A stretch of 64,000 nucleotides of DNA from the NCBI GenBank assembly GCA_032164245.1, contig JAVMKO010000010.1, forward strand, positions 27,788,189 to 27,852,188, given 5' to 3'. Under the pieces are notes generated by a model. That model did not search any database and was not told where the DNA came from. It saw nothing but the letters and a program-made list of their open reading frames with translations. Shown here in pieces: positions 21,153 to 22,926 of the stretch. The DNA is from Sternotherus odoratus. Lineage: Eukaryota; Chordata; Testudines; Kinosternidae. Positions within the stretch are counted from its first letter, which is position 1. Every line of letters begins with the position of its first letter. The translations under genes and the position numbers were made by a program.

Positions 21153-21299
21153 ACTATTAGTAGGCTGACCATACGTCCTGTTTTGAACGGGACAGTCCCG
21201 TTTTTTACATATTTTCCGACCGTCCCGTCTTTTTAGTATAAATATCAAATTTGTCCCGTTTTTGCTTTTTGCTAAAAAAAAAACGGAACGCAGCTTATT

Positions 21300-21681
21300 T
21301 CAGGGACCCACGGCCGGGTCCCGCCTCCTCCCACCCCCTCCTGCAGCCCTTCAGTCCCTTCCCCTCACGGCCTCGGGCCCCCCTCCCCGGCCTGCTCCCC
21401 CCTCCCCTCCGCCGCCGCAGAGCCCGTGCGGCGCAATTGGCTGGGCTGCCCCCACGTGGGGCGGAGTGGAGCTGCTGGCCGGGCAGAGGCTGCCTGGCGC
21501 CTCACTCCCCCCGCCCTCCCCATGTGGAGGAAACGTGATGTACGGCCCAATGAGGGGGCCACGCGGGCGCGGGGATTGCTGAGCTCAGGGAGCCGGGGGG
21601 AGGCCAGCAGCTGGGGTGGGTGCTGAGCGGAGCCGGAGACAGCGTGAGCCTGGGAGGGAAGGAAGCGCCGCCCCGGGCCCC
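21300..21681 (+). promoter_or_regulatory. Captured CpG-island promoter and 5' UTR
   Basis: The stretch is dense in undecayed CpG. It contains an ATTGG (inverted CCAAT) at 21436-21440, an overlapping E-box CACGTG (21453-21458) and GC box GGGGCGG (21458-21464), and a CCAAT at 21547-21551. No TATA box is seen. This is the layout of a housekeeping CpG-island promoter. It ends at an ATG in a GRK-like exon. Activity is inferred from motifs only. Confidence 0.6.
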
Positions 21682-21733
21682 ATGGAGCTGGAGAACATCG
21701 TCGCCAACACTGTGCTGCTCAAGGCGCGCAAAG
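21682..21733 (+). pseudogene. GRK5/GRK6: GRK5/GRK6-type first coding exon captured by a hAT element
   Basis: ATG at 21682 opens [17 protein letters not shown] and the exon stops after the first base of codon 18, at 21733, followed by GT (21734). From memory this is the N-terminus of G-protein-coupled receptor kinases of the GRK4/5/6 group, whose first exon ends at the same phase and residue. GRK4 differs at residues 10-11, so GRK5 or GRK6 is meant; codon choice looks more like GRK6. Family consensus has Glu at residue 17 where Lys (AAA) is read here. In the parent kinase this N-terminal helix docks on activated receptors. No second exon follows within the element, so this is a partial copy and cannot make a kinase. 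The enclosing inverted ends and 8-bp TSD show it is a transposed copy and not the native gene. Confidence 0.8.
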
Positions 21734-21833
21734 GTGGGGGGGGGGATCGGGCGGGGCGGCATGGGGGGGAGGGAGTATGGGGTGGGGGGACATGGCTGCG
21801 TGTGAGGGGGGCAGGGGGAAAGAGGGGTGCGTA

Positions 21834-22200
21834 GGGGCCGTGTGTGAAAGTGGGTGGAAGTGAGGGGCACAGGGTTGTGTGTGAAGGGAGGTACTGGGGC
21901 TGCATGTGAAGGGGGTGGTAGGTGGTGGACACGAGGCTGTGTGTGAAGGGGGTATTGGGGGAGTAGGGGGCATGGAATGGGGGGCACAGGGTTGTGTGTG
22001 AAGGAGGGTACTGGGGGGTTCCAGGGCTGTGAGTGAAGGGGGTGGGGGGAAGTGGGGGGCACAGGGTTGTGTGTGAAGGAGGGTACTCGGGGGGTCCACG
22101 GCTGTGAGTGAAGGGGGTGGTGGGGCTAAGAGGGGGGCACAGGGTTGTCTGTGAAGGGAGGTACTGGGGAGTCCAGGGCTGGATGTGAAGAGGGGCAGGG
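21834..22200 (+). repeat. G-rich minisatellite in the captured intron-like part
   Basis: The words gggcacagggttgtgtgtga and ctgtgagtgaagggggtgg recur. Copies of gcacaggg start near 21866, 21984, 22059 and 22138, so the last three are spaced 75-79 bp. It lies just after the splice donor and would belong to intron 1 of the parent gene or have grown inside the transposon. Confidence 0.75.
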
Positions 22201-22926
22201 GGTGGGTAGGGGAGATGGCAGGTGGGTAGGGGTACCATGGTTAACCCCCTCCCTGAACACATGGATGCGGGGGTTGGGCCAAGCCTCAGAGCCCATTCGG
22301 GGCATCAGTCTTCAAGGCACAGCTAAGGCCTGGGCAGGTGGCTGTGGCATGCGTGGGCGATGTGGTGGGGTTGGTGAGAAGCCGTGTTTCTGCTGCAGGA
22401 GATGTAGGGAGAGGACTTGGTCAGTCAGAGGGTTACTGATAGTGGAGGCGGTTGGGGGCCTGCCCGGAGGAGGAAGGCAGAGTGGCTGGCCTGGGGGAAG
22501 CTCTTGTTGCACAAGCTTCTGCCTGTGAGATGCTACGCAGGAAACTGAGCCATAGCTACAAGCTGATGTGGTTGGGGGAGGCAAATAGGGGGTCATTTGA
22601 GGTGTCTGAAGAGAATCATGGAGTGTGAGAAGTTTTATGATAAGGTACTGAAAGACTGAAATTTGCTGCGTAAGATTACTTCATCGGTGAAATATTCATG
22701 GTACGATCATGGTGAAATACAGTCCCCCTTTAAGTCTACCTAAATTTTTGTATGAGTTCTGTCACTGAAGAATAATTGTTAGCTCAAGTCAATATGTTCA
22801 TGTAATAAAACTTTTTTTATCGTCTTATTTTTTCATGAATACAGAATATTACATAACCCCGTCCCGTTTTTGCTATCCCAATGTCCCGTTTTTGTCTCAA
22901 GGAAATATGGTCAGCCTAACTATTAG

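Follow-up and report, generated by a model that had tools for sequence, protein, structure and literature searches.

The window analysed here is a stretch of 64,000 nucleotides from the turtle Sternotherus odoratus (contig JAVMKO010000010.1, positions 27,788,189 to 27,852,188, forward strand), and coordinates refer to it unless another contig is named. At 21161-22918 it contains a hAT-like transposon of 1,758 bp that carries the first coding exon of the kinase gene GRK6, with upstream DNA, a splice donor and part of intron 1. The left terminal inverted repeat (TIR), TAGGCTGACCATA (21161-21173, plus strand), and the right one, TATGGTCAGCCTA (22906-22918), match at 13 of 13 positions and are bounded by a target-site duplication, ACTATTAG, with 8 of 8 bases identical between 21153-21160 and 22919-22926. 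An earlier interpretation of this DNA, hereafter the sequence-only reading, had reported inverted ends and a perfect 8-bp duplication, and both were confirmed exactly at 21161-22918. Perfect 13-bp inverted pairs no more than 3 kb apart number 72 in the window, and two of them are flanked by a perfect 8-bp duplication: the present element and another at 52609-52963.

The element is a mosaic of blocks, all described on the plus strand. The left, AT-rich transposon end with subterminal GTCCCGTTTTT repeats occupies 21161-21308, the border with the next block being approximate, and it is kept even in seven copies that have no exon. A GC-rich block with ATTGG, CACGTG and GGGCGG motifs (21309-21538) is present in full copies. 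The proximal upstream region and 5′ untranslated region (UTR) of GRK6, with a CCAAT box at 21547, follow at 21539-21681 and align to about 1835-1978 of the fetched stretch that holds the native exon 1 (L053). Coding exon 1, which consists of 17 codons and the first base of codon 18, runs from the ATG at 21682 to 21733 and leads into the donor GTGGGG of intron 1 (21734-21739), identical at the native locus. The intron segment (21734-22618) includes a G-rich minisatellite at about 21830-22200, matches the native gene by blastn and breaks off after GAAGAGAATCA. The right, AT-rich transposon end (22619-22918) begins where native similarity stops; it contains AATAAA at 22804 and the right inverted repeat.

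The identity of the exon is clear. Its translation, continued past the donor, matches PDB entries of GRK6 (E 5.7e-8) and GRK5 (E 1.2e-7), and a tblastn search of the window with GRK6 gives E 3.8e-8 at the exon and E 2.3 for the next best match; no other GRK exon was found in the window by that search. The GT at 21734 (AAG|GTGGGG) ranks in the top 0.05% of plus-strand positions under a simple donor matrix. A comparison of 120 listed GRK proteins, relatives of GRK6 of which 99 have a recognisable usual N-terminus, bears on the exon boundary. Four of them (P0076, P0110, P0112 and P0118) leave out the following exon immediately after ...KARE, at a phase-1 codon; they read ...LLKARE, then E plus one of G, K or R, then DY, with codon 18 split. 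In 14 other relatives a different beginning is joined to GGGGNRK or to a shortened form of it. The native GRK6 exon 1 ends GCGCGCGAAG|GTGGGG, the same junction as in the element, and the exon-skipping isoforms and this shared junction together place the end of exon 1 correctly. The sequence-only reading had proposed an ATG-started GRK exon 1 followed by a GT in the expected phase, and the protein matches, the isoforms and the native junction bear this out. Its expectation of a standard GRK N-terminus held for the exon end and the phase but not for codon 17, which is K in the window copy and E in native GRK6 and in all 99 proteins with the usual N-terminus, a CpG-to-CpA change.

A tblastn match reading SSLLLKARTGG at 57917-57991 (E 2.3), in AT-rich DNA, shows a weak likeness to GRK exon 1, with 22 bp at 91% identity (blastn E 0.066), and is probably due to chance.

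The donor gene lies elsewhere in the same genome. With a turtle GRK6 protein (P0072, from Carettochelys) as probe, the exons were found in order on contig C8 at 624013-647012, and the preceding 10 kb (L053) holds the native exon 1 at C8:616079, with exon 2 starting about 7.9 kb downstream. When identities over GRK6 were summed, a turtle and birds ranked highest, but overlapping pieces inflated these sums. The element aligns to the native gene from about 21539 to 22618, and in the copies shown the similarity stops abruptly at its right-hand limit. The captured piece is thus about 1,080 bp and comprises proximal upstream DNA, 5′ UTR, exon 1, the donor and the first 0.9 kb or so of intron 1. The exon is identical to the native one at 50 of 52 positions, both differences being CpG transitions, which affect codons 10 and 17, and the intron identity is 88% over positions 712-1458 of the element (blastn) and near-complete between 22400 and 22617. 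The capture of a GRK gene start, as proposed from the letters alone, is therefore upheld, with GRK6 as the donor, and the native exon 1 is on another contig with its downstream exons in order. In speaking of a promoter the sequence-only reading went beyond the evidence, the putative promoter being recognised by sequence shared with native GRK6 (about 140 bp above the ATG, including the CCAAT box); the block at 21309-21538 has no native alignment, and no clear match to it was found within 18 kb around native exon 1 (C8:606101-624100). This block may be a second captured piece, or upstream DNA since lost by native GRK6.

A DNA search of the turtle's own 1.76-Gb genome, in which the best 40 of 2,550 first-look candidates were scored, gave 57 match rows, and most of the full rows are bounded by query positions 59-62 and 1819-1823, the element's own ends. 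The 40 places, the window included, were fetched. Both ends are present in 38 of them and one end is missing in two (L023 and L028); the ends are identical in most of the 38, with one-base variants in some. The duplications of the 38 match at 8/8 in 26 and at 7/8 in seven, and are worse in five (L006, L013, L017, L018 and L029). A second set comprises 21 distinct further places, L054 and L056 being one and the same place, as are L055 and L057, so that each pair counts once. Both ends lie within the fetched stretch in 13 of the 21, and all 13 have duplications at 7/8 or better. A 43-bp probe for exon 1, allowing up to 3 mismatches, finds 143 places (63 forward, 80 reverse), native GRK6 and the window included, and its reversed control finds none on either strand; 51 exon-bearing places among the 143, being 30 of the 38 and the 21 further ones, were read directly. 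Additional copies that have these ends but other duplications were what the sequence-only reading proposed to look for; they establish both capture and movement, and its mobile cut-and-paste element is thereby substantiated. The patterns of the transposon ends and of the exon gave 0 matches each in viral_contigs and genome_contigs, and viral_contigs holds no relative of GRK6.

The 8-bp duplication fits the hAT superfamily; among the 38 copies with both ends, 26 match at 8/8 and 33 at 7/8 or better. The inverted repeats of hAT elements start YARNG; here the start is TAGGC, differing at base 5, and the sister elements in the window start TAGGG. Rfam gave 0 matches, and an antisense open reading frame at 21588-22304, compared with 5.8 billion proteins, returned 909 candidates, none at E 0.001.

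Among 98 of 100 places taken from the matches listed (native GRK6 and C12 left out), 12 neighbouring pairs lie within 500 kb of each other, against 3.3 expected, and none of 5,000 shuffles reached 12. Two further copies, L075 and L076, lie 31 kb and 110 kb from the window copy and have other duplications. Local hopping is a habit of hAT elements and would explain such clustering; a regional preference for insertion would do so too.

The aligned copies point to a single capture followed by amplification, as nearly all share the same differences from native GRK6. The statistics cover 36 copies, or 28 for the exon, since L023 and L028, which lack one end, and L025 and L036, which carry extra insertions, were left out. 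A non-native base is shared at 21587 (26/27), 21591 (27/27), 21601 (27/27), 22385 (34/36), 22518 (35/36) and 22535 (35/36); it is less uniform at 21571 (12/16), 21655 (25/28) and 22584 (25/36), and at 21538, a position at the border of the alignment, it occurs in 28 of 28. Over 318 bp of unique intron the 36 copies diverge from their majority by a median of 1.6%, and the native gene differs at 4 of the 318 positions. By this measure the copies are very young, although the estimate is a lower bound on age as the top-scoring copies were sampled.

The captured upstream DNA, start codon and splice donor are kept in the copies. The ATG is intact in 27 of the 28 aligned members of the first set, the 17-codon frame is open in 21, the donor GT is present in 25 and all three coincide in 18. 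In the second set, which was picked by the exon probe and is biased for the exon and not for the donor, 20 of 21 have the donor GT, 19 have the GCCCAATGAG box and seven encode the exact 17-residue peptide. This intactness is read as youth and not as proof of selection. The CpG-island score is 0.58 for 21300-21760 of the window copy, between 0.65 and 0.81 for copies L008, L003, L005, L002 and L022, and 0.89 for 471 bp of native GRK6. CpG content by itself is weak evidence of a promoter, because other GC-rich transposons of the window pass the same screen; homology to native GRK6 is the better argument that the upstream piece may act as one.

Seven copies (L026, L027, L030, L031, L032, L035 and L040) share a deletion of the upstream DNA and the exon, with a short TTATTT filler in place of 21309-21763. 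They differ in their duplications, and their right part is still GRK6 intron. The exon is therefore a passenger as far as movement is concerned. That these copies are the ancestor from before the capture was considered and rejected, the one common junction and the GRK6 intron on the right marking them as deletion derivatives. Two further variants were noted: L002, L013 and L037 have a common 3-base insertion in the exon, which suggests a subfamily, and in L025 a GC-rich insert about 680 bp long, whose ends resemble those of a transposon, interrupts exon 1.

We consider it very probable, taking the account as a whole, that a piece of GRK6 was captured, was spread by transposition and now constitutes most likely a passive gene-start trap. 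A non-autonomous hAT-like transposon took up a genomic, and not reverse-transcribed, piece reaching from the upstream region into intron 1; transposase acting on the element ends would then have moved this piece to many sites across the genome, the window copy being one such insertion. The anatomy of the element, the donor gene, the copies with different duplications, their number, their intact splice donors and the one set of changes that they have in common relative to native GRK6 are direct observations. Where a copy lies in sense upstream of a gene or within an intron, the GRK6 promoter could start a transcript, and the 52-base exon with its phase-1 donor could be spliced to the next acceptor to provide an alternative 5′ exon. 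With a phase-1 acceptor the gene would gain the 17-residue N-terminus of GRK6, in these kinases the helix that docks on receptors; the donation of a GRK N-terminus that the sequence-only reading envisaged is a prediction of this kind. The majority of the copies are probably silent and in decay. It is possible, but in our judgement unlikely, that the element has become a natural gene-start trap across the whole genome, that several unrelated genes have alternative first exons driven by its copies, that some of these gain a GRK6 N-terminus linking new proteins to activated receptors, and that small RNAs against the copies might act back on native GRK6.

No such claim is made for the window copy, given modest acceptor scores and no recognised host gene. 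The candidate acceptors scored in the window all lie inside or at the end of the element, the best of them in the top 1.4% of AG sites. A Pfam search of 247 open reading frames of at least 57 codons, outside masked GC-rich and repeat stretches, recognised no host gene around the copy, although exons in shorter frames would be missed; it gave three weak single matches in 116 of the frames (best E 0.00047, a domain of unknown function) and none in the other 131.

Comparison with known systems is informative. Plant Pack-TYPE transposons and Pack-MULEs are non-autonomous TIR elements that shuffle host coding DNA. For animals, a survey of 100 genomes lists 370 Pack-TIRs, of which 208 are hAT elements, the commonest carrier; the fragments captured have a median size of 224 bp (Tan et al. 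2021, PMC8277862). Only four multicopy cases are given there, three from frog and one from alligator, with different target duplications and distant parents, and one of the frog cases has 291 bp of the CAPSL 5′ UTR at three chromosomes (PMC8277862). The turtle element resembles these in being a TIR transposon with a host-gene fragment, an identified parent, multiple copies and different duplications. It differs from the Pack-TIRs of that survey (PMC8277862) in having about 1,080 bp of captured DNA with upstream region, start codon and splice donor, and 143 places with exon 1. In vesper bats HelibatN3 captured the NUBPL promoter, six N-terminal codons and a splice donor, was amplified genome-wide, traps downstream exons in cells and drives some bat transcripts (PMC4778049). 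The two have in common a promoter-exon-donor cassette spread over a genome, with transcription predicted in the turtle case from the sequence of the cassette. HelibatN3 is a rolling-circle element, in contrast to the inverted ends, 8-bp duplications and 17 GRK6 codons found here, so that the GRK6-bearing element may by analogy work like HelibatN3 but is not one. The family joins Pack-hAT anatomy, a cassette of the HelibatN3 type and high copy number, and no title among the literature matches listed describes a high-copy hAT element with such a cassette.

Several other explanations were considered. That the exon is the native first exon of GRK5 or GRK6, its flanks resembling transposon ends by chance, has practically no probability left: the first intron of GRK5 can be very long, so that the exons missing in 42 kb are not decisive, but the native GRK6 exon 1 on C8, with its exon 2 about 7.9 kb downstream of it, refutes the idea, and the exact ends with their duplication, the many sister copies and a codon 17 found in none of the 99 proteins stand against it too. 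A retrocopy or read-through copy lacking the intron was suggested by codons 18-26, which read GGGGDRAGR, like GGGGNRKGK; in intron-like composition such a likeness has a chance of roughly 0.04 as regards GGGG and 0.06 as regards agreement at two or more of the five residues after it. The native intron 1 itself begins GTGGGGGG, however, with native exon 2 far downstream, and the element contains both upstream DNA and intron 1; the native alignment refutes a processed pseudogene or retrocopy, and we regard it as extremely unlikely. Helitrons make no target duplication and have no terminal inverted repeats; the element has both, which rules a Helitron out. Gap repair at this locus might instead have brought the GRK6 piece into a transposon already resident there, with which it then never moved, a course for which the gap-filling model of single-copy Pack-TIRs (PMC8277862) provides a precedent. 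The presence of the piece inside the same ends, with different duplications and shared derived changes, at dozens of places refutes this as the history of the present copies and makes it very unlikely, though the founding capture may still be described in such terms.

Another proposal sees in the copies a DNA parasite that is dead and whose passenger is neutral; the GRK6 piece would be transcriptionally silent everywhere and would leave host genes unaffected. Ten of the 28 copies fail in at least one of ATG, frame and donor, exon-less derivatives amplify as well, and the window copy shows CpG decay at codons 10 and 17; against this, many copies retain the parts of the cassette intact, and HelibatN3, as the closest analogue, does start transcripts (PMC4778049). 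We give this proposal slightly less than an even chance. Several observations also weigh against capture, spread and a gene-start trap as set out above. The trap function is itself a prediction from sequence, and the CpG score of 21300-21760 is equalled by three other GC-rich stretches of the window. Seven of the 38 copies with both ends were amplified without the exon, so the cassette is dispensable for mobility. The block at 21309-21538 is not explained by GRK6. The use of the 40 best-scoring copies and of a probe for an intact exon biases age and intactness toward young copies. Finally, the element has no known transposase partner: seven stop-free frames scanned within it have no Pfam match, and no genome search aimed at an autonomous partner was made.

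Do mobile first exons create new genes? Does amplification of a promoter affect the parent gene? The capture and spread of the GRK6 gene start make these standing questions directly testable, as there are copies of known age and intactness with exon-less derivatives as built-in controls, and RNA data could answer by counting. Bat Helitrons are a documented case of a ready-made gene start being spread, whereas multicopy capture by cut-and-paste elements is very rare in the animal survey, with four cases, the one described there having three copies (PMC8277862). Here a single genome offers 143 places with exon 1, a known donor gene and very young copies.

The window contains other transposons. 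Three hAT elements of the miniature inverted-repeat type with TAGGGTGACCAGA-type ends (36258-36382, 45482-45604 and 24860-25855) have ends related to those of the GRK6-bearing element, 8-bp duplications and subterminal repeats of GTCCCG followed by a T run; Pfam recognised no host-gene exon in the part of their reading frames that was scanned. The largest, the 996-bp hAT-like element at 24860-25855 with TAGGGTGACCAGA ends, has a 7/8 duplication and GC-rich cargo, and neither of its two scanned frames gave a Pfam match. An element at 20212-20807, some 350 bp away from the GRK6-bearing one, has CAGT...ACTG ends, a TA duplication and a GC-rich interior, which we take to be of Tigger-like type. 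The 924-bp element at 626-1549 has CAGGG...CCCTG inverted ends, a 7/8 duplication (AGCGTCAA/AGCATCAA), a GC content of 0.80 and a filling of GC-rich minisatellite. The 355-bp element at 52609-52963 has CAGTGGTCCCCAA ends, an 8/8 duplication CTCTAAGG and a tandem interior with a GC content of 0.70. At 47846-50169, two direct repeats of 707 bp, 99.7% identical, enclose a short interior with a zinc-knuckle frame (48499-49416), for which a search gave a single match, at 57% identity; this is a very young element of the long terminal repeat type.
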